From IMG/VR virus record IMGVR_UViG_3300030012_001783, positions 1 to 60,383 of that record: DNA of 60,383 nt. One strand, given 5' to 3'. The notes below the pieces were generated by a model. It was not told the DNA's origin and made no database searches. It saw only the letters and a list, made by a program, of their open reading frames with translations. Made by a program: the position numbers and the translations under genes. This DNA is from a virus. Below, piece by piece: positions 2,329-11,454 of this stretch; positions within the stretch are counted from its first letter, which is position 1; every line of letters starts with the position of its first letter.

Positions 2329-3428
2329 TAAAAGATGTTGAATCTTTTCACTTCGTTTTTAGTGTACCAATCCCCACAACCACTGCAATGGTATTGGTCT
2401 ATTGTTTCATCGTGTTGCAACTCTTGGAAGCAAAACCCACACTCGTGTGTTTCTTCTTGCTCGTCTGCAACTTCATCGTCCCGGAAAGTATCTAAAGGTA
2501 CGTCCCACATATTATACTGAGTACACGTTGGCTCTATCTTCGTGTAAGTATTTGATGAGGGTAAGCCATACTTAAGACGATAGTTTTGTTCATAACTCTC
2601 GTGCATCTCAGTATGCTCCGTAACTTTTTGAGGATTGAAATACAACCAACAAGTAAGCTCTTTACCACTCTTTAGTTTTATAGGTATCTCTTTTCTTCTA
2701 TACCACTTCGGATGACCTTCAAGTCGGTCAATGGACTTGAATGAAGCATTGCTTACCTTGAACACATCAACCTCAACATTGTGACCTACACCTTTCTTAT
2801 CCACCATGTAAGGCAGACCTTTGATAACTAAAGGGTACTTGTCCTTAGTAACTCCACTACCTACATACTTTGCATTACGTAGGTAGGTGTTGTAGTTAGA
2901 GTATCCTTTCTTTAGTGTACCATACACTGCTACAAGATTCTCTTGAAGCACGTTGGCTTTAGAATACCAAATGCCGTCCTTGTATGTGTAAAGATGTTTG
3001 TTGAATATTTGGAACGAACGATTCCGAGTATTGACTGCAACAAACCGGCATTCATACTTAGACAACTCTTTCTTCCAAGTTTGTCGTGGCATCTGACCTA
3101 ATGCAATAGCTAATACTTTTGAGTCACACATCTGAGCATTACCCATACCATGTATTGTACCATTCATCATTAGCCATTCATCTTTGTTTTTACCACACTG
3201 AAATGGGTGTGTATTGTCCTTGTTGATAGCACCTACAGTAGCATATCTAAAGTGAGCAATGAATGGTCGCTCTGTTAATAAGACATTGTAGTCTTTTGAT
3301 TTGTGGTAGGTTACCTCGAAAGTATCCAACCACACGATACCCAATCCGTGAGGATTGATTCTTGCTGATGTCTTTGCAATCTCTCTTGACATCATCTTTT
3401 GCTTTTGCTTAATAATAATTACGCACAT
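2328..3428 (-). CDS. Class II glutamine amidotransferase / gamma-glutamylcyclotransferase fusion with zinc ribbon
   Basis: 366 aa with three parts. Residues 1 to about 165 are a class II (Ntn) glutamine amidotransferase: Cys2 directly after Met, NPHGLGIVW, HFRYATVGAINKDNTHPF, MMNGTIHGM and DSKVLAIAL, the usual landmarks for glutamine hydrolysis. Residues about 168-290 are a gamma-glutamylcyclotransferase/AIG2-like domain: VYGTLKKGYSNY glycine loop and IDRLEGHPKWYRR with the expected catalytic Glu. The last 40 residues carry CxxC...CxxC (CGFC, CSGC), a zinc ribbon. A longer reading frame could start at 3509, but that start lies inside the promoter; the 3428 start puts the nucleophile at position 2, as the family requires. 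With the amidoligase at 6294-7256 it suggests a gamma-glutamyl/amide chemistry system. Substrate unknown. Confidence 0.85.
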   Translation of the reverse strand: MCVIIIKQKQKMMSREIAKTSARINPHGLGIVWLDTFEVTYHKSKDYNVLLTERPFIAHFRYATVGAINKDNTHPFQCGKNKDEWLMMNGTIHGMGNAQMCDSKVLAIALGQMPRQTWKKELSKYECRFVAVNTRNRSFQIFNKHLYTYKDGIWYSKANVLQENLVAVYGTLKKGYSNYNTYLRNAKYVGSGVTKDKYPLVIKGLPYMVDKKGVGHNVEVDVFKVSNASFKSIDRLEGHPKWYRRKEIPIKLKSGKELTCWLYFNPQKVTEHTEMHESYEQNYRLKYGLPSSNTYTKIEPTCTQYNMWDVPLDTFRDDEVADEQEETHECGFCFQELQHDETIDQYHCSGCGDWYTKNEVKRFNIF

Positions 3429-4005: not shown

Positions 4006-4389
4006 TTAAGTTAATTCTACTTTTACATAAACATTGAATACTTCGTGATACTCTCCGGTATCAGAATGGATTGCACCATCTTCACCTACGCACACGATAC
4101 ACGCTCCATCATCTTCGTGGTTTTCAACCACTCTTGTGACTGCCTGAACGTCTTTGTATTCAGGATACCACTTAAGCCAATTACCCTCGTATATTACAAG
4201 TTTATTTGTTTTTTCAACCAACTTATCATCCTCATACTGAGAGTAAGTTTGCTCGTGGTCATACTTTTTAAATGATGGACTTGTTTCAAACTGAGGCTTG
4301 GTAAGTAAGTTATTACTATTCATTGCCTTGTCCATTTCAGCTTCAGCTTTTTTTGGTACTGCTACGTACACTTCACTATAATATCCCAT
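4006..4389 (-). CDS. Hypothetical protein downstream of hammerhead 1
   Basis: 127 aa, acidic, not recognised. It begins MGYYSEVYVAVPKK, an opening I associate with small phage proteins of unknown function, and contains a Trp/Tyr-rich centre (YEGNWLKWYPEYKDVQAV) and a beta-rich end. The predicted hammerhead cleavage site at 4412/4411 would leave a 22-nt leader before this start codon. Its message may therefore start with a 5'-hydroxyl produced by the ribozyme. Confidence 0.68.
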   Translation of the reverse strand: MGYYSEVYVAVPKKAEAEMDKAMNSNNLLTKPQFETSPSFKKYDHEQTYSQYEDDKLVEKTNKLVIYEGNWLKWYPEYKDVQAVTRVVENHEDDGACIVCVGEDGAIHSDTGEYHEVFNVYVKVELT

Positions 4390-4405
4390 AATATTTAATT
4401 TAATT

Positions 4406-4469
4406 GGTTAAGACATCAGTCCGTTGTAACGGACTAATGTTTCGGACACTCAGTCCTCATCAGTTAACC
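4406..4469 (-). ncRNA. Hammerhead ribozyme 1 (type I)
   Basis: Minus-strand RNA, 5' to 3': stem I GGUUAA; core CUGAUGA; stem II GGAC-UGAGU-GUCC; core GAAA; stem III CAUUAGUCCGUU / AACGGACUGAUG with a 2-nt loop; cleavage triplet GUC; stem I partner UUAACC. All invariant core positions of the hammerhead are present and every stem pairs, with only one G·U. Cleavage is expected between 4412 and 4411. The UAA stop of the upstream gene (4466-4464) lies in stem I and the next ATG is at 4389. Stem III contains the dispersed palindrome. Confidence 0.93.
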
Positions 4470-4766
4470 TATCTCGTTTTGCTCTTTGACAAACTCTACA
4501 ACTGCATTGTATGTATCTTCCAATGTCCATATGTTTTCGTACTGCTCTGTAAGGTGCGAGTACGTCTCATCAAATGGTGTATTAAGATATTCATCGCCTA
4601 TCTTTTGGACTACCGGCATAAGCCAATCCCAAGATGTATCATACTTTAATTCACTTACTTCAAATGTACCATGACTAAACTTATACAAGGTAGCATCTGT
4701 TACCTCGTTAAAGGGATGAGTACACCCCATAAATTGTGCTATTAGTTTGTTGCTATCTCCATTCAT
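4464..4766 (-). CDS. Small phage protein, paralog of the next-upstream gene
   Basis: 100 aa. It shares an ordered set of motifs with the 89-aa protein at 4753-5022: NKLIAQFMG at the start, YDTSWDWLMPVVQKI in the middle, and TYNAVVEFVKEQN at the end. They are tandem paralogs. Short proteins with this layout are common in Bacteroidota phages with no known function. The start overlaps the paralog's end by 14 bp. The stop codon UAA forms part of stem I of hammerhead 1. Confidence 0.78.
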   Translation of the reverse strand: MNGDSNKLIAQFMGCTHPFNEVTDATLYKFSHGTFEVSELKYDTSWDWLMPVVQKIGDEYLNTPFDETYSHLTEQYENIWTLEDTYNAVVEFVKEQNEIG

Positions 4767-5022
4767 GTTGACTATCTTTAATAAATTCTATTACTGCTTT
4801 ATATGTTCTTGATATATCTTGATAACATAACGCATCAAGTATTCGACTAACATTTGTGTTAGTTAAACCTCTACTTACCTCTGTTTGACCTATCAAACAT
4901 TTCTTAATGACCGGCATAAGTAAGTCCCAAGAGGAGTCGTAGTCTTTGTATACATTACGATACAATAACGCCTTTGGCGTGTCGCCCATAAACTCTGCTA
5001 TGATTTTATTGTTTGCTTTCAT
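4753..5022 (-). CDS. Small phage protein, paralog of the next-downstream gene
   Basis: 89 aa. Motifs NKIIAEFMGDT, YDSSWDLLMPVIKKC and TYKAVIEFIKDSQ match the downstream 100-aa protein in order and spacing, so a local duplication produced the pair. Its 5' end overlaps the 53-aa gene by 17 bp. Function unknown; it is soluble, small and without metal or nucleotide motifs. Confidence 0.78.
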   Translation of the reverse strand: MKANNKIIAEFMGDTPKALLYRNVYKDYDSSWDLLMPVIKKCLIGQTEVSRGLTNTNVSRILDALCYQDISRTYKAVIEFIKDSQHEWR

Positions 5023-5167
5023 TGGTTTTCTTTTTTGCTTTTACTTTTTTTGATACGCTCATCTGATGCTCGTCATCCAACTGACGCTCACGCTGAGCAT
5101 TCGTGATTGCTATCCCTTGCATGAGTCCCTCTTGCATCGAGATAAATAACTCTTTCATTTTTCCCAT
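5006..5167 (-). CDS. Small basic protein, 53 aa
   Basis: A 53-aa gene with start at 5167, 32 nt after the -7 element of a well-formed promoter (5199-5230). The protein begins MGKMKELFISMQEGLMQGI, has a charged middle (NAQRERQLDDEHQ) and ends in a Lys-rich tail (SKKVKAKKKTNESKQ). It overlaps the next gene by 17 bp. A helical N-terminus with a basic tail may bind nucleic acid, but no family is recognised. Confidence 0.68.
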   Translation of the reverse strand: MGKMKELFISMQEGLMQGIAITNAQRERQLDDEHQMSVSKKVKAKKKTNESKQ

Positions 5168-5198
5168 AATTATTTGTTTTAATTGAACTAAATTTAGA

Positions 5199-5230
5199 CA
5201 AAGATAAGAATAATATTTTAATCTACCAAA
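5199..5230 (-). promoter_or_regulatory. Internal Bacteroidota-type promoter
   Basis: On the minus strand TTTG (5230-5227), 20 nt, TATCTTTG (5206-5199). The -33 element overlaps the end of the 65-aa gene. It would drive the 53-aa gene, the paralog pair, hammerhead 1 and the two genes after it. Confidence 0.8.
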
Positions 5231-5415
5231 TCCTTATACTTCTTTAACTTCATGTGTAAGTGAACAACTACGTCTGCGATGTCAAGAACGATATGTCTGC
5301 CCTCTACCCTTACCTGATAAAAGTGTGCGTCATCTTGAACTTCTTCCAACTTCTTTATGTAAGTCTCTGTAGCGTTTACTAATTTCTTTAGGTACTCTTG
5401 TTGTATTGTTTCCAT
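5218..5415 (-). CDS. Hypothetical small protein downstream of hammerhead 2
   Basis: 65 aa, mainly helical and charged (METIQQEYLKKLVNATETYI), not recognised. The start is 20 nt after the expected hammerhead 2 cleavage site. The stop region carries the -33 element of the internal promoter at 5199-5230. Confidence 0.65.
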   Translation of the reverse strand: METIQQEYLKKLVNATETYIKKLEEVQDDAHFYQVRVEGRHIVLDIADVVVHLHMKLKKYKDLVD

Positions 5416-5429
5416 AACTATTTATTTTT

Positions 5430-5493
5430 GATTAAGACATCAGTCCGTCTGAACGGACTAATGTTTCGAGTAATAAACTCTCATCAGTTAATC
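5430..5493 (-). ncRNA. Hammerhead ribozyme 2 (type I)
   Basis: Minus-strand RNA: stem I GAUUAA; CUGAUGA; stem II GAGU-UUAUU-ACUC; GAAA; stem III CAUUAGUCCGU / ACGGACUGAUG with a 4-nt loop; GUC triplet; stem I partner UUAAUC. Compared with hammerhead 1, both strands of stem I change together (GG/CC to GA/UC), and stem II changes completely but still pairs. This covariation is strong evidence for selection on structure. Cleavage is expected between 5436 and 5435. The upstream stop codon is at 5496-5494, next to stem I. Confidence 0.93.
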
Positions 5494-5895
5494 TTACCAC
5501 TTCTTCTTTATCTTGTACTTGTACCTTACTTTCTTGTGCCTCGTCTTTATATTAAAATAGATAAATAGTTCTAATTCACGTGAGATGTTAGTCCACGCAA
5601 GATTAGTGCAAATTCTATTGCCATCTGCATATAAGTCCTTAACAATCTTATATCTGCATACCCATCTCCACCAACAATCACCATCAGTATCTATTCCAAA
5701 GACAAAACCAAGAAACCTTGCTTCCTCATATCCCTCGCCCTCGCGATAGTATGCTTTATATAGAACTCCATCTGCTCCACTATAGTGATGTCCACAATAA
5801 GGTGCAGTCTCGCCCTCGTAATACTCTAACTTCTTACGTTTGTAGTCTATGTATTCACAAGCATTTATTATCAATCTAATTAATCTCTTTTTCAT
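5494..5895 (-). CDS. Hypothetical Tyr/Trp-rich protein
   Basis: 133 aa, not recognised. It is strongly basic at both ends (MKKRLIRL..., ending KKVRYKYKIKKKW) and aromatic in the middle (CGHHYSGADGVLYKAYYREGEGYEEARFLG and DGDCWWRWVCRYKIV), with several Cys and His that could bind metal. The start is overlapped by the end of the 51-aa gene (20 bp). The stop directly abuts stem I of hammerhead 2. Confidence 0.65.
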   Translation of the reverse strand: MKKRLIRLIINACEYIDYKRKKLEYYEGETAPYCGHHYSGADGVLYKAYYREGEGYEEARFLGFVFGIDTDGDCWWRWVCRYKIVKDLYADGNRICTNLAWTNISRELELFIYFNIKTRHKKVRYKYKIKKKW

Positions 5896-6031
5896 CTGTC
5901 TGTGTTATTAGGTTATACAATTCCATTGGTTTTATTTGAGTCCACTTGCCAAGTCCATTGAGCCTGTAGAAATTTCCACAGGCATCAATCCTTACCAACT
6001 TACCCTCGATTACTATTGCTTTTGCTTCCAT
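5876..6031 (-). CDS. Small protein, 51 aa
   Basis: A 51-aa frame from ATG at 6031 to TAG at 5876. Sequence features: MEAKAIVIEGKLVRIDACG, then NFYRLNGLGKWTQIKPMELYNL, a small beta-rich fold with a GKW turn. It starts 6 bp after the stop of the membrane protein and overlaps the following gene by 20 bp, as expected in a compact operon. No family recognised. Confidence 0.65.
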   Translation of the reverse strand: MEAKAIVIEGKLVRIDACGNFYRLNGLGKWTQIKPMELYNLITQTDEKEIN

Positions 6032-6036
6032 AGTTT

Positions 6037-6186
6037 CTATTTGTTTAAGTGTAAATTAATTGCGTAAATACTGCTGAATATTAATACTATCCATACAAGA
6101 CTTCCACTCAATGCGAAAGCGTAAATCGTACCTATCGTACTTGCTAATAGCAACACAAAGATTGCCCAATAATTAAACTTTTTCAT
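6037..6186 (-). CDS. Small membrane protein with two predicted transmembrane helices
   Basis: 49 aa. Residues about 7-24 (WAIFVLLLASTIGTIYAF) and 28-45 (GSLVWIVLIFSSIYAIN) are hydrophobic, joined by a short turn, so the protein is a helical hairpin in the membrane. The N-terminus is KKF and the C-terminus ends in Lys. It lies directly after the type III hammerhead in an early operon, so an inner-membrane role early in infection is more likely than lysis. Confidence 0.7.
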   Translation of the reverse strand: MKKFNYWAIFVLLLASTIGTIYAFALSGSLVWIVLIFSSIYAINLHLNK

Positions 6187-6205
6187 AATAATTTGGTTTT
6201 AAGTT

Positions 6206-6256
6206 TCCGTTTCGACCTTTTGGTCTCATCAGCACAAGCACTCACTTGTGGACGGA
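6206..6256 (-). ncRNA. Hammerhead ribozyme 3 (type III)
   Basis: Minus-strand RNA: stem III UCCG; cleavage site GUC; stem I CACAAG-UGAGUG-CUUGUG (closed loop); core CUGAUGA; stem II GACC-AAAA-GGUC; core GAAA; stem III partner CGGA. The order is permuted relative to the other three copies, so the open stem is stem III (type III). The open stem is short: four pairs plus the A15.1-U16.1 pair. Cleavage is expected between 6251 and 6250. It lies between the amidoligase stop (6294) and the start of the 49-aa membrane protein (6186). Confidence 0.87.
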
Positions 6257-6260
6257 GAGA

Positions 6261-6288
6261 GGGCATCCGTCCGTTTGAACGGACACCC
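6261..6288 (-). repeat. Palindrome hairpin between the amidoligase gene and the type III hammerhead
   Basis: The minus-strand RNA pairs GGGUGUCCG with CGGAUGCCC (two G·U pairs) around a loop containing the rest of the palindrome (core 6269-6284). The upper stem resembles stem III of the hammerhead at 7274-7341. It has no T run after it. Confidence 0.7.
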
Positions 6289-6293
6289 ATAAA

Positions 6294-7256
6294 TCATCTC
6301 TCAGTAGCTCTGCGTAGGCTCGTAGTGTAGTGTGATGTAAGCCTATTGTATTGGTCAACCCACTGCACAACCTCAGCGTTAATCTTACCACTCATCAGCA
6401 TCTTTCTGAATGACTTTGATAGAGTAACAATCTCATCAACCTTAGCTTCATTGCCATCGTACATATACAAGAGTATAGACTTAATCTTCTTGATGAATCC
6501 TGCGTACGTGCCGTTTGGCTTGTTGATAGCGTAATTCATCAACTCATACATAAGCCTATAGCGAAGATTAATGCTTCTAACTGACTCCACTCGGTTAGGT
6601 AGACGAAACTCAATTCTATCGTCCATAATCTTACACACGTGATACTTACTGCTTGACGTATGTCCAACCCAATCCCGGGAATACTCACTTGTATTCATCA
6701 TCAAGTTTCCATAGCAATATGAATTGCGTAACCTGAATCGCCATAGAGCGTAGATAATACCTGAATATGGTCTTAGCTTATCAGCCAAGTCTTGTCCACT
6801 CATACCTACACAAGAAAGAGTAATGTGACCACCACATCTTTGGTTTGACGGAGAGTATCTATCCTCAATAATCTTACTCGCTTCAGAGAACATACCAAGC
6901 ACTTTGTTACGCCAAACTGACTTGTCCACTAATGGTAGTAAGTTAGTCACTGCTTCAACTCCACAAGAAGAATCGTACTCGAAATGACTGAACAAAGGAT
7001 ATTCTTTGACTGCTCCACGATGAAAGCTATTCTTCTCAATCTCAAAGCCTATCGCAAACTTTGACTCAAACTCGCCCTCATCATTGGTAAAGGTAGTCAA
7101 GTCACGTGTAGCTCTAGGTAAATGAGTCAAGTCACGCTCAAACTCAGTCTTGTTTAGCTTTCTGAATGGTAGACCGATTCTACTCGCTTCGTGGTAGCGT
7201 AGCATTCGACCTCTGTTCGAATTGCCCTCAGCTACATAATTAATTCCTTGTATCAT
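6294..7256 (-). CDS. Amidoligase-like enzyme (carboxylate-amine ligase family)
   Basis: 320 aa. Landmarks of the putative amidoligase family (glutamine-synthetase-like fold): FAIGFEIEKN near residue 65, FEYDSSCGVEAVTNLLPL (substrate/metal loop and ElvS-like strand), RCGGHITLSCVGMSG (the cGlHvHv position) and RIEFRLPNRV (phosphate-site Arg). Such enzymes form amide bonds with ATP. The frame is open upstream to 7310, but that start would lie inside the ribozyme stem III. I chose the ATG at 7256, 23 nt after the expected cleavage site. The amidotransferase/cyclotransferase fusion at 2328-3428 is a plausible partner. Substrate unknown. Confidence 0.78.
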   Translation of the reverse strand: MIQGINYVAEGNSNRGRMLRYHEASRIGLPFRKLNKTEFERDLTHLPRATRDLTTFTNDEGEFESKFAIGFEIEKNSFHRGAVKEYPLFSHFEYDSSCGVEAVTNLLPLVDKSVWRNKVLGMFSEASKIIEDRYSPSNQRCGGHITLSCVGMSGQDLADKLRPYSGIIYALWRFRLRNSYCYGNLMMNTSEYSRDWVGHTSSSKYHVCKIMDDRIEFRLPNRVESVRSINLRYRLMYELMNYAINKPNGTYAGFIKKIKSILLYMYDGNEAKVDEIVTLSKSFRKMLMSGKINAEVVQWVDQYNRLTSHYTTSLRRATER

Positions 7257-7273
7257 AACTATTTGATTAATTT

Positions 7274-7341
7274 GGTTAAGACTCAAGTCCGTCCGTTTGA
7301 ACGGACTCAAGTTTCGTCTATTGAAGACTCATCAGTTAACC
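7274..7341 (-). ncRNA. Hammerhead ribozyme 4 (type I)
   Basis: Minus-strand RNA: stem I GGUUAA; CUGAUGA; stem II GUCU-UCAAU-AGAC; GAAA; stem III CUUGAGUCCG / CGGACUUGAG (two G·U pairs) with a 10-nt loop; GUC; stem I partner UUAACC. Core positions are all intact. Stem III has a different base (CUUGAG versus CAUUAG) with matching changes on the other strand. Cleavage is expected between 7280 and 7279. The UAG stop of the upstream 204-aa gene (7343-7341) overlaps stem I and the amidoligase ATG follows 23 nt after the site. Confidence 0.92.
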
Positions 7342-7955
7342 TATGAATTTAGTGATGTTCTCATCTCATTGAACGATGCAGTAACCATTGGAGGAATTTT
7401 ATCCTCATCGCCACTGATATGAATTTGTCCGTCAGCAGTCAAACGCATAGAAACACCTTTGCCGTCATCGAATATATCACCTTTGATAGCGAATGTCATC
7501 AGAGTAGTAGATGTAGATTCAACCTCAGCATCATCGCCATCAGTCTCAATTGCTTTGGCATATTTGAGTAGATTCTTGATGCTTCTCGGAGCAGTCTTAT
7601 CATCTTGGCTTTCTAGCTTCGTACACTCACGTTTGTACTTGGTGATAACTTCACTAGACTCCTCTCGTAGCTTACCAACCTTAACCATGTCGTAAAAGAA
7701 TGATTTGTTGTAACCGAATATTTGCTTGTGAAATTCTTCGGTAGTCATCACTATGCCAACATAGTCCATCTGTTGCTTACATTCGTCTGATTTGAAATAC
7801 TCGAAAGTTTTGTAAATCTTGTGAGCTAACTTGATTTGCTTGTCAAACGTCTTCTTCTCTGAGTCTTGTAACTCAGTTACTAGCGTCAATGCACCATTGA
7901 ACTCACTACAATTGTTTCCTAACAATTCTTCGAAAATTGGATTAATTTGTCTCAT
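7341..7955 (-). CDS. Hypothetical protein, first gene of the early accessory operon
   Basis: 204 aa, not recognised. The N-terminal 140 residues are helical and charged (KIYKTFEYFKSDECKQQMDYVGIVMTTEE..., KLREESSEVITKYKRECTKLE). The C-terminal part has alternating strands (TLMTFAIKGDIFDDGKGVSMRLTADGQIHISGDEDK). It is the first gene after the leftward early promoter at 8018-8048, a position often used by host-takeover or regulatory proteins. That is inference from position only. Its stop codon forms part of hammerhead 4. Confidence 0.7.
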   Translation of the reverse strand: MRQINPIFEELLGNNCSEFNGALTLVTELQDSEKKTFDKQIKLAHKIYKTFEYFKSDECKQQMDYVGIVMTTEEFHKQIFGYNKSFFYDMVKVGKLREESSEVITKYKRECTKLESQDDKTAPRSIKNLLKYAKAIETDGDDAEVESTSTTLMTFAIKGDIFDDGKGVSMRLTADGQIHISGDEDKIPPMVTASFNEMRTSLNS

Positions 7956-8017: not shown

Positions 8018-8048
8018 CAAATATAGTTTAATTCTCGTACAATACAAT
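8018..8048 (-). promoter_or_regulatory. Leftward early promoter, Bacteroidota type
   Basis: On the minus strand ATTG (8048-8045), 19 nt, TATATTTG (8025-8018). The -33 element is one base off TTTG. It reads into the 204-aa gene and the hammerhead-containing operon with a leader of about 60 nt. Confidence 0.75.
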
Positions 8049-8960: not shown

Positions 8961-10550
8961 ATGAATCCAAAAGAATTACACTTTGCTGATGAGGGTAGAG
9001 AAAAACTTTTCAGCGGACTAGAAAAAATTACTAACGCAGTAAAGAGCACTCTCGGTCCTAGAGGTAACACAGTGCTAATTGAATCAGAAAATCATACTCA
9101 TGGAATCACCGTTACTAAAGATGGTGTTACAGTTGCTAAGTCTATTAGCTTGCTTGACTCTGTGGAAAATCTTGCAGTGCGTATTGTAAAGGAAGCTTCG
9201 GAAAAGACAGCGACTAATGCCGGTGATGGTACTACTACTGCAATCGTATTATCGCAAGCTTTATCTCTTGCGGGTAATGAGATGATAAAGTCGGGCATGA
9301 ATAAAACTTTAGTTCTTAGAGAGCTAGTTGAAGCGACAAAGGTTGTAGTGGAAAATCTTAAAAAGATGAGTAAGCCTGTTGATGATAATAAGCTTGAGGA
9401 TGTTGCTACCATTTCTGCTAACAATGATTCTTATATAGGTAATATAATATCTAAAGTATATAATTCAGTAGGTACAGATGGAATTGTTACGGTTGAAAAT
9501 TCTCAGTCTTCTGAAACATATTTTGAGGTTACTAACGGTATTAAGGTTGACCGTGGTTACTCTAGTAACTTGTTTATCAATAATCACAAAAAGGATGAGT
9601 GTATTTATGAAGATGTAAATATTCTTGTTAGTGATGCTGAGATAACAAATGTATTACAGATTGAAAATATTTTAAAACCAATTATTAATAAGGGTGAAAA
9701 GTTATTGATTATAGCTAACGCATCTTCTAATGTATTAAACACTCTTGCTGCTAATGTTATGAAGAACGGTTTGAAGATATGTGTTATATCACCACCGAGT
9801 TTTGGTTACAAGCAACATGAGTTGATGAATGATATTGCATTATCTGTTGGTGCTACATATTTTTCTGAAAAGACAGGTGACGACCTTAGCCTTATACTGC
9901 CTAAAGATTTAGGTAAGGCTAAAAAAATTATAGTAGGTAAAGATTCATCTATTATTATTAAAGATGAAGATGTAGTATCTAAAGATGATATTGATAAGCG
10001 AGTATCTGAGCTTCGTGATGCACATGACATAACTGATAAAAAAGCTGACCGTGAGTTTATACTATCACGTATAGCTTCTTTGACAGGAGGTGTAGGTGTT
10101 ATATATGCAGGAGGTAAAACTGACCTAGAGCAAAAAGAACTGTATGACCGTATTGATGATGCTGTATGTGCTGTTCGTTCTGCTACTGTTGAGGGTATAC
10201 TTCCGGGAGGAGGAGTAGCTCTTGAAAATATATCACGTAAATTAGTTCTAAAAGATAATTGGTCTGATGAGAAGAAGTGTGCGTATGAGATACTTAAAGT
10301 GTCTTTACTATCACCTATTGTAACAATACTTGAAAATGCAGGACTAAATTATAATTCAATATACTCTGATGATTTTTCAAAGGGTTGGGGTTATGATGTA
10401 AAAAATGATAAATATGGTAATATGATGAAGATGGGTATTATTGACCCAATGAAAGTTACTAAGAACGCTCTTCAAAATGCTGTGTCAGTTGCTGTCACAC
10501 TGCTTAGCACTAATGCTATTATTACCATGATGAGAAGTAATGGAAAATAA
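8961..10550 (+). CDS. groEL: Chaperonin GroEL (phage-encoded)
   Basis: 529 aa, slightly shorter than bacterial GroEL (about 545). The equatorial ATP site is present: VKSTLGPRGNTVLIE, ITKDGVTVAKSI-type loop and NAGDGTTTAIVL with the catalytic Asp. The apical part includes LLIIANASSNVLNTLAANVMKNGL, and the C-terminal equatorial part has GGVGVIYAGG, EGILPGGGVAL and VTKNALQNAVSVA. It lacks the C-terminal Gly-Gly-Met tail. A phage GroEL most likely folds capsid or tail proteins. It is the first gene of a unit with phoH (11-bp overlap) and groES, from the promoter at 8909-8938. Phage GroELs are known but uncommon; whether it works as one or two rings cannot be seen. Confidence 0.96.
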   Translation: MNPKELHFADEGREKLFSGLEKITNAVKSTLGPRGNTVLIESENHTHGITVTKDGVTVAKSISLLDSVENLAVRIVKEASEKTATNAGDGTTTAIVLSQALSLAGNEMIKSGMNKTLVLRELVEATKVVVENLKKMSKPVDDNKLEDVATISANNDSYIGNIISKVYNSVGTDGIVTVENSQSSETYFEVTNGIKVDRGYSSNLFINNHKKDECIYEDVNILVSDAEITNVLQIENILKPIINKGEKLLIIANASSNVLNTLAANVMKNGLKICVISPPSFGYKQHELMNDIALSVGATYFSEKTGDDLSLILPKDLGKAKKIIVGKDSSIIIKDEDVVSKDDIDKRVSELRDAHDITDKKADREFILSRIASLTGGVGVIYAGGKTDLEQKELYDRIDDAVCAVRSATVEGILPGGGVALENISRKLVLKDNWSDEKKCAYEILKVSLLSPIVTILENAGLNYNSIYSDDFSKGWGYDVKNDKYGNMMKMGIIDPMKVTKNALQNAVSVAVTLLSTNAIITMMRSNGK

Positions 10551-11196
10551 ATCTAAGAAGCCACCAAAGGGTAGCGTTAAGTTTAACATATCCTTGTCTG
10601 AGGAGCAAAAAAGAGCTAAGGAGCAAATGATAAAACATCCTTATAGCTTTGTTGTAGGTAAGGCAGGGTCAGGTAAAACATTGCTTGCTGTTCAGGTGGC
10701 TTTAGATATGTTCTTTAAAAGACAGTATAACAAGATAATTATTACAAGACCAACTGTTGCGACTGAAGACAATGGGTTTTTACCCGGTACTGAAAAAGAA
10801 AAGCTAGAACCTTGGCTTGTACCTATCATGTCTAATATGCGTAAGGTCTATAACAAGCCTGATAAGATAGCCAAGATGGTGGAGCAAGAGGAAATTGAGC
10901 TAGTCTCTCTTGCCCACTTTCGAGGCAGAACATTTGACGGTGCTGTAGTTATAGTAGATGAGTTTCAAAACTTAACTAAGGCACAATTAAGAATGGCTTT
11001 AGGTAGGTTGGGTAAAGACTCTATAATGATATTCTGTGGAGACAATCAGCAGATTGATTTATCTACGGAGCTTAACTCAGCAATTGACGATGTTCATAAA
11101 ATAAAAGGTAGCGACTATGTGTTTAAAGTTATACTAGAAGACAATCATAGAAACAAAGCTATAGACGATGTATTAAAACTTTTAACAGGATACTAA
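10540..11196 (+). CDS. phoH: PhoH-like ATPase
   Basis: 218 aa, the usual size of phage PhoH proteins. Walker A GKAGSGKT (residues 40-47), ITRPTVATEDNGFLPGTEKEKL (the conserved PhoH loop), Walker B VVIVDEFQN, and sensor-like IMIFCGDNQQIDL. PhoH proteins are P-loop ATPases related to SF1 helicases and may act on RNA. Their role in phages is not settled, although they are very common in aquatic phages. The start overlaps groEL and groES begins 1 bp after the stop, so the three are one unit. Confidence 0.92.
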   Translation: MENKSKKPPKGSVKFNISLSEEQKRAKEQMIKHPYSFVVGKAGSGKTLLAVQVALDMFFKRQYNKIIITRPTVATEDNGFLPGTEKEKLEPWLVPIMSNMRKVYNKPDKIAKMVEQEEIELVSLAHFRGRTFDGAVVIVDEFQNLTKAQLRMALGRLGKDSIMIFCGDNQQIDLSTELNSAIDDVHKIKGSDYVFKVILEDNHRNKAIDDVLKLLTGY

Positions 11197-11454
11197 ATGA
11201 AACCAATAGGAAAATATATTGTAATCAATGAAATTAAAGAAGAGGTAAAAACACAATCAGGTATTTTACTTTCAGGAGATGACGTTGATAAGATAAGATA
11301 CAAAAAAGGTACTGTTGTTAAACCCGGTACTGAGGTAACAAAAATAAATGAAGGTGATGTAATATATTACGACACAAGAGCAGGTTACTCTATGTTTATA
11401 GAAGACGTGCAGTATACGATTATTCGTGAGAACGATGTCGTTGTTGTCTTATAG
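11197..11454 (+). CDS. groES: Co-chaperonin GroES
   Basis: 85 aa. A GroES beta-barrel: KPIGKYIVINEIKEEVKTQSGILLSGDD (mobile loop region), YKKGTVVKPGTEV....EGDVIYYD, and the C-terminal YTIIRENDVVVVL matching y.ivrE.DIlav. It caps the phage GroEL ring. It directly follows phoH. The last 35 bp overlap the end of the convergent wHTH-like gene. Confidence 0.9.
   Translation: MKPIGKYIVINEIKEEVKTQSGILLSGDDVDKIRYKKGTVVKPGTEVTKINEGDVIYYDTRAGYSMFIEDVQYTIIRENDVVVVL

Follow-up and report, generated by a model that had tools for sequence, protein, structure and literature searches.

Hammerhead ribozymes as probable self-processing sites at gene boundaries of an early phage operon

Results

Four hammerheads lie between genes of one operon

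The virus record IMGVR_UViG_3300030012_001783 was analysed over its whole length of 60,383 bases (the window). Its terminase is 75% identical to that of the relative MW202828, 46% to those of the Flavobacterium elemo phages and 39% to that of Cellulophaga phi13:2, and by its terminase and primase the virus is placed among the podophages of Bacteroidota. On the minus strand, an operon spanning 7955 to 3545 carries four hammerhead ribozymes in the gaps between its genes, three of type I and one of type III, which had been picked out earlier by a reading of the letters alone (the original prediction). A strict hammerhead descriptor (CUGANGA, stem II, GAA, stem III with A15.1-U16.1, H17, stem I) finds exactly four matches in the window, all on the minus strand and with the coordinates and cut sites then proposed, C17 being at 7280, 5436 and 4412 in the type I copies and at 6251 in the type III copy. 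The invariant core CUGANGA ... GAA(A) ... NUH with A15.1-U16.1 is present at all four sites, and at each the minimum-energy structure calculated by RNAfold is the hammerhead fold. Dinucleotide-shuffled windows gave a mean of 0.03 descriptor matches and a maximum of one (100 shuffles); these shuffles, together with the covariation described below, rule out a chance origin of the four sites. The ribozymes and the elements attached to them, in the direction of transcription (nt, nucleotides; bp, base pairs), are:

7272-7343, minus strand: type I hammerhead 1, with stem I formed by 7341-7336/7279-7274 and the core at 7335-7329; stem II 7328-7325/7319-7316, stem III between 7312 and 7281, cut 7280/7279
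7257-7279, minus strand: leader after the hammerhead 1 cut, 23 nt, which stays on the downstream gene
6261-6288, minus strand: 12-bp hairpin in the spacer from the gene B stop to the type III ribozyme, ending on its 3' side 10 nt short of the cut
6205-6256, minus strand: type III hammerhead, with stem III formed by 6256-6252/6210-6206; UGAGUG as loop I and AAAA as loop II; cut 6251/6250, 64 nt from the cut to the ATG
5428-5495, minus strand: type I hammerhead 2, with stem I formed by 5493-5488/5435-5430 and the core at 5487-5481; a cut at 5436/5435 would leave a leader of 20 nt before the ATG at 5415
4404-4471, minus strand: type I hammerhead 3, with stem I formed by 4469-4464/4411-4406 and the core at 4463-4457; a cut at 4412/4411 would leave a leader of 22 nt before the ATG at 4389

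As had been predicted for the type I copies, each upstream stop codon lies in or next to stem I, and the leaders of 23, 20 and 22 nt place the next ATG 20-23 nt past the cut. Stem I of these copies is either GGUUAA or GAUUAA, and all three have one identical palindrome as the outer part of stem III, so the original statement that the stems differ between copies overstated the variation, stem I and outer stem III being nearly identical in type I; its other half, that pairing is under selection, is upheld by the wider comparison below.

The palindrome, GTCCGTTNNAACGGAC, has a distribution of its own. With up to two mismatches it occurs 13 times in the window (at 474, 2110, 3450, 4419, 5443, 6269, 7291, 8226, 31834, 45675, 53044, 55676 and 59580) and not at all in shuffles. 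Each of the three type I ribozymes has it as its outer stem III, the hairpin preceding the type III ribozyme is built of it, and it is also found in a terminator-like hairpin at 2131-2104 and within genes. It is common in the close relatives L002-L004, introduced below, and absent from the examined part of MW202828; it is possibly a spreading palindromic element or a favoured hairpin cap.

The original prediction placed ribozymes in four of the gaps of this operon, and the counts agree: four of its ten gene junctions, and four of its five gaps of at least 20 nt, hold one. Three IMG/VR contigs in which gene B is 95-97% identical (L002-L004) retain hammerheads. Hammerhead 1 is conserved in all three, of which the L002 contig ends after the first two hammerheads, and L004 has one additional (fifth) type I copy whose stems are changed and still paired. 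L003 and L004 contain a 60-amino-acid (aa) gene after the first ribozyme that is absent from the window, and L004 contains a 103-aa gene with its own ribozyme. The genes between ribozymes thus vary among the window, L003 and L004 while the ribozymes persist. In MW202828, a more distant relative, 25.9 kb were examined and no hammerhead was found. The sole operon gap of at least 20 nt without a ribozyme is 5168-5217; near it, L003 and L004 carry additional genes and L004 an additional ribozyme. The genes and the candidate promoter of the operon are:

8018-8025, minus strand: TATATTTG, candidate promoter -7 box upstream of gene A
7341-7955, minus strand: gene A, 204 aa, function unknown; UAG stop at 7343-7341, its last base common to stem I of hammerhead 1
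6294-7256, minus strand: gene B, 320 aa, function unknown; the MW202828 homologue is 38% identical
6037-6186, minus strand: 49-aa gene, hydrophobic product; opens the unit after the type III ribozyme and has orthologues in L003 and L004
5876-6031, minus strand: 51-aa gene, overlapping the next gene
5494-5895, minus strand: 133-aa gene; UAA stop at 5496-5494, immediately 5' of stem I of hammerhead 2
5218-5415, minus strand: 65-aa gene
4464-5167, minus strand: three overlapping genes (5006-5167, 4753-5022 and 4464-4766) with no ribozyme in between; the last stop is a UAG at about 4464, abutting or entering stem I (4469-4464) of hammerhead 3
4006-4389, minus strand: 127-aa gene, the first past the last ribozyme

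Searches of PHROG, Pfam and phages yielded no function for the flanked genes, and gene A had no match in Pfam or PHROG. The 49-aa product looks like a small membrane protein, as judged from its translation. The candidate -7 box may be of the Bacteroidota type, whose consensus we take to be TAnnTTTG. Elsewhere in the window, a GroEL-like chaperonin (8961-10550), a PhoH-like ATPase (10540-11196) and a GroES-like chaperonin (11197-11454) adjoin one another; judged from the translations, the phage appears to encode its own chaperonins, and MW202828 has annotated groEL and GroES genes.

Two ribozyme families below Rfam thresholds recur across phages

Covariance models were made from other phages, leaving out the window and its close relatives. 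The type I model scored hammerheads 1, 2 and 3 at 56.1 bits (E 9.5e-14), 56.9 bits (5.5e-14) and 53.9 bits (4.3e-13), and the type III model scored the remaining site at 73.3 bits (E 1.2e-18). At gathering thresholds, Rfam 15 gave no match in the window and no hammerhead in nine related loci. In E-value mode, RF00163 (Hammerhead_1) reached 26.9 bits at best against a cut-off of 34, RF00008 (Hammerhead_3) 18 bits against 48.5, and RF03152 (RAGATH-1 hammerhead) 26.3 bits against 56.3. A covariance-model search, named with the original prediction as a check, therefore comes out blank with Rfam at its gathering thresholds and positive with the models from other phages (E about 1e-13 for type I and 1e-18 for type III). 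The window copies have the catalytic core and the three-helix topology (types I and III) in common with these three Rfam families and differ from them in that every copy falls under the curated cut-offs; routine phage annotation relying on those cut-offs would therefore overlook both families. We also considered whether the elements are misread members of another Rfam family, and rejected this, the gathering scan being empty and E-value mode returning only weak matches of hammerhead type.

A pattern made of the core and a stem I with UUAA matched at least 119 stretches of IMG/VR, many of them with several copies. A second scan, designed to escape this bias on stem I, required nothing beyond the core and a single common form of stem II and loop II, and 108 of its 110 evaluable seeds proved to be complete type I hammerheads; flanks shuffled around the same seeds passed in 68 of 5500 cases. 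In all 108, stem I has exactly 6 bp, with 648 of 648 cells paired against a mean of 387 after re-dealing of the 3' strands; the sixth pair is G-C in 106 and an A.A mismatch adjoins it in 107. Loop II of type I is mainly U-N-A-N-U. A scan seeded on stem II of type III likewise found full hammerheads at 110 of 113 evaluable seeds, 99 of them of type III, in which loop I is U-G-W-G-U-R. The three helices are conserved through compensatory change: 32 diverse type I sequences have 480 of 480 cells paired, 185 of them changed on both sides, and 28 type III sequences have 98.3% of cells paired, 146 changed on both sides. These aligned rows had been pre-filtered for a minimum stem, and the independent tests are the scans seeded on core and stem II. 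The A.A mismatch beside a 6-bp stem I together with a UNANU loop II, and a UGWGUR loop I together with an AAAA loop II, may reflect loop-loop or loop-bulge contacts between stems I and II, such as fast cleavage requires.

The collection amounts to at least 473 distinct type I and at least 135 type III hammerheads (about 600 in all) from at least 400 sources, of which at least 147 have two or more hammerheads on one strand; these totals are lower bounds. Sampling was by seed patterns, open reading frames (ORFs) were called mechanically, and phage contigs are interrelated, so that counts are not independent events. The longest runs comprise 9 (L126), 10 (L390) and 11 or 12 copies (L402) within a few kilobases, the uncertainty in L402 coming from one type III descriptor match that has an atypical loop and may be false. 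In L402 a ribozyme stands at almost every gene boundary, each followed by a leader that often bears AGGAGG. Where both types occur, type III precedes every type I on the strand in 23 of 27 loci, the window being an exception; in several loci with type III first, the upstream region is a long non-coding leader. We rejected a rule by which type III would without exception head the ribozymes of its operon, since it fails in the window and an unbiased sample of 99 type III sites includes intergenic positions. In L180, L190, L174 and others, copies within a genome often share stem I and leader while stems II and III differ, which suggests duplication of a leader unit or selection on stem I.

Cultured Pelagibacter phages with such hammerheads are HTVC019P (type III at 976, type I at 3002), HTVC142P, HTVC131P and Jormungand, and Cellulophaga phage phi19:3 has one in the gap between gp051 and gp050. 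In Jormungand (L227, 3816-6051), a type I hammerhead has, about 1.4-2.2 kb upstream of it, two genes annotated as anti-restriction ArdA; an association of hammerheads with ardA in Agrobacterium and Legionella was noted by Perreault et al. (PMC3088659). A blastn search of GenBank phages found no relatives of the type III family. In 248 Bacteroidota genomes the type I model matched just twice, one match being the centre genome, and given this near-absence we regard the type I design as a phage feature.

Ribozymes keep a register with stop and start codons

In 463 of 497 cases the hammerhead is on whichever strand has the more coding sequence. Of 265 sites of type I, 241 are close to an ORF stop, whose end falls for the most part between -9 and +3 counted from C3, and only eight of the 265 lie inside a longer ORF on the same strand. 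In 175 of the 241, the stop ends at one of four positions counted from the first core base (-7, -6, -1 or +3), which places it directly 5' of stem I, within stem I (UAA) or in the core (UGA). From cut to ATG the median is 24 nt (interquartile range 22-27). The leaders are A-rich, and a Shine-Dalgarno-like stretch is present in 72 of 196, so that the hosts probably include both users and non-users of that signal.

At 99 type III sites the stop has a median position 30 nt 5' of the ribozyme, and the ATG follows about 22 nt past the ribozyme end. At most of 120 type III sites a strong hairpin occupies the spacer, with its 3' end 5-10 nt before the cut. The 28 nt preceding the ribozyme at these 120 sites have a mean folding energy of -11.6 kcal/mol, against -4.0 for shuffled and -2.5 for coding sequence, and 74% of them reach -8 kcal/mol, compared with 37% when the best window is taken from gaps without a hammerhead. 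The sequences of these hairpins vary widely among phages.

Discussion

The four elements are genuine hammerheads, and we think it likely that through them an early polycistronic transcript of a Bacteroidota podophage cleaves itself at gene boundaries, which would make them built-in mRNA processing sites. From this analysis, the processing reading draws on sequence, covariation, conservation and a strict register with stops and starts. In our model, the ribozymes, oriented with the genes, would cut the early transcript between them. The upstream mRNA would retain its stop codon and end within about 10 nt of a stable hairpin, provided by stem III in type I and by the separate hairpin before the cut in type III. 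Self-cleavage that leaves a 2',3'-cyclic phosphate and a 5'-hydroxyl (5'-OH) is established hammerhead chemistry, and the upstream 3' end would accordingly bear the former and the downstream RNA a defined 5' end with the latter. The downstream gene would receive an A-rich, unstructured leader, which would be short after a type I cut and would carry the ribozyme body after a type III cut. Adjacent genes or coupled blocks would thereby become separate mRNAs of separate stability, with neither terminators nor a host nuclease, and the stability and dosage of neighbouring early genes may be set apart in this way, the 3' hairpin presumably protecting the RNA upstream. The original prediction spoke of single-gene units. 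Division into smaller units stands, but the segments 6186-5494 and 5415-4464 would stay uncut and contain overlapping genes, and the units are therefore genes or coupled blocks; some other phages do approach one ribozyme per gene boundary.

Several points weigh against this model. MW202828, with a primase 77% and a gene B 38% identical, manages without hammerheads in the part examined, and the ribozymes are therefore dispensable in this phage group; some gene junctions of the window have none either. The register with stops arises in part by itself, UGA being included in CUGAUGA and UAA being frequent in stem I. For cleavage to be fast during transcription in vivo, moreover, tertiary contacts are required, of which the conserved loops are the putative sign here.

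The position of the stop codon also bears on a possible but less probable role as a switch gated by translation, in which a ribosome terminating upstream would cover the ribozyme and keep it unfolded, so that the cut would report finished or sparse translation and its timing would be regulated. The preferred stop positions in 175 of 241 type I sites and the fit of all three type I window copies speak for it, but CUGAUGA and UUAA supply stops automatically, phage genomes are compact, and at type III sites a stop about 30 nt 5' of the ribozyme lies beyond the reach of such an effect. The ATG usually being near the ribozyme, cleavage might instead release a start site masked in the uncut RNA. The predicted unpaired fraction around the ATG barely shifts on cutting, however, at the four window sites (0.62 to 0.62, 0.76 to 0.80, 0.44 to 0.48 and 0.61 to 0.66). 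This near-constancy favours separation of mRNAs and definition of their ends over unmasking, which we hold to be very improbable, and the earlier suggestion that cleavage sets the translation of the cistrons apart finds no backing in start-codon unmasking.

Shared stems raise the further idea that the ribozymes mainly produce circular or re-joined RNAs, as in viroids and retrozymes: the 5' end released by one copy would pair with stem I of the copy that follows, and the reverse reaction or a ligase would join the two. Successive copies do have identical stem I in 10 of 30 pairs, against 2.9% between genomes, while stem III is identical in only 2 of 30 against 1.1%. Yet 13 of the 30 pairs form at most 4 bp across copies, so that there is no general requirement; the shared leaders point instead to duplicated leader units, and Perreault et al. 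(PMC3088659) sought such products and found none. As a general role we rejected circularization, the stem I strands of many successive copies being mismatched, and we give it little credence as the main one. It is similarly hard to see the ribozymes as relics of mobile or selfish elements, or as recombination joints at which cassettes are swapped, with no current part in RNA processing. Neighbouring genes do change between the window, L003 and L004 while ribozymes remain, and the distribution is patchy, MW202828 having none in the examined region; but near-perfect compensatory pairing and an invariant core in hundreds of copies need ongoing selection for catalysis, and we judge this account quite unlikely.

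Support for self-processing of phage mRNA also comes from earlier work. Contrary to the original prediction, which knew of no serial set, Perreault et al. described in 2011 clustered prophage hammerheads that flank single genes or blocks, and proposed processing into gene-length mRNAs; three tandem sets cleaved in vitro and one in E. coli, with no circular products, and a triple set surrounds ardA in Agrobacterium tumefaciens (PMC3088659). The likeness is plain, as the window too has two or more same-strand hammerheads flanking genes of a phage operon and thus several around genes or blocks on one phage transcript. Serial phage hammerheads and the mRNA-processing idea have therefore been known since 2011 (PMC3088659). 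The arrangement described here differs from those clusters in its rigid register of stop, ribozyme, leader and start, its two conserved sub-designs, the hairpin before type III, and runs reaching 10-12 copies, the phages being for the most part uncultivated. That paper says nothing of stop codons or terminators, and we found in its text no hairpin preceding a type III ribozyme (PMC3088659). No later description of the stop-ribozyme-leader layout was found in the open-access literature, which leaves subscription papers and supplements uncovered. What appears to be new is the standardized gene-boundary module, its spread, and two families below Rfam thresholds.

In viroids and retrozymes, hammerheads delimit the monomers of circular non-coding RNAs (PMC4918200, PMC6155905). 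The ribozyme class and the presence of multiple copies per RNA are the same, but here distinct copies, differing in stem II and part of stem III, separate different protein-coding genes, and the set is not of the retrozyme or viroid-like kind. A closer parallel in outcome is phage T7, whose early transcript is cut between genes by RNase III into separate mRNAs with hairpins near their 3' ends. Both systems would split one early polycistronic RNA by intergenic cuts and leave 3' hairpins; T7 employs a host nuclease that leaves 5'-phosphate ends, whereas here the phage RNA would be cut by its own ribozymes, with 5'-OH and 2',3'-cyclic phosphate ends as the result.

More broadly, we speculate, with the balance poised evenly, that in many phages, those of Bacteroidota and SAR11 among them, the standard gene-boundary device is a pair of interchangeable ribozyme cassettes, each providing a stop codon with a hairpin-capped 3' end and a free leader; entire early regions would then mature by self-cutting, in place of terminators or nucleases of the host, and the terminating ribosome might gate the cuts. 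A specialist review of 2017 treated the role of prokaryotic hammerheads as an open question (PMC6155905). The constant leader, the fixed stop register and the hairpin at nearly every new 3' end point to mRNA maturation as a single job, and hammerhead function in bacteria and phages thereby becomes concretely testable, since the cultured phages allow direct mapping of RNA ends in infected cells.

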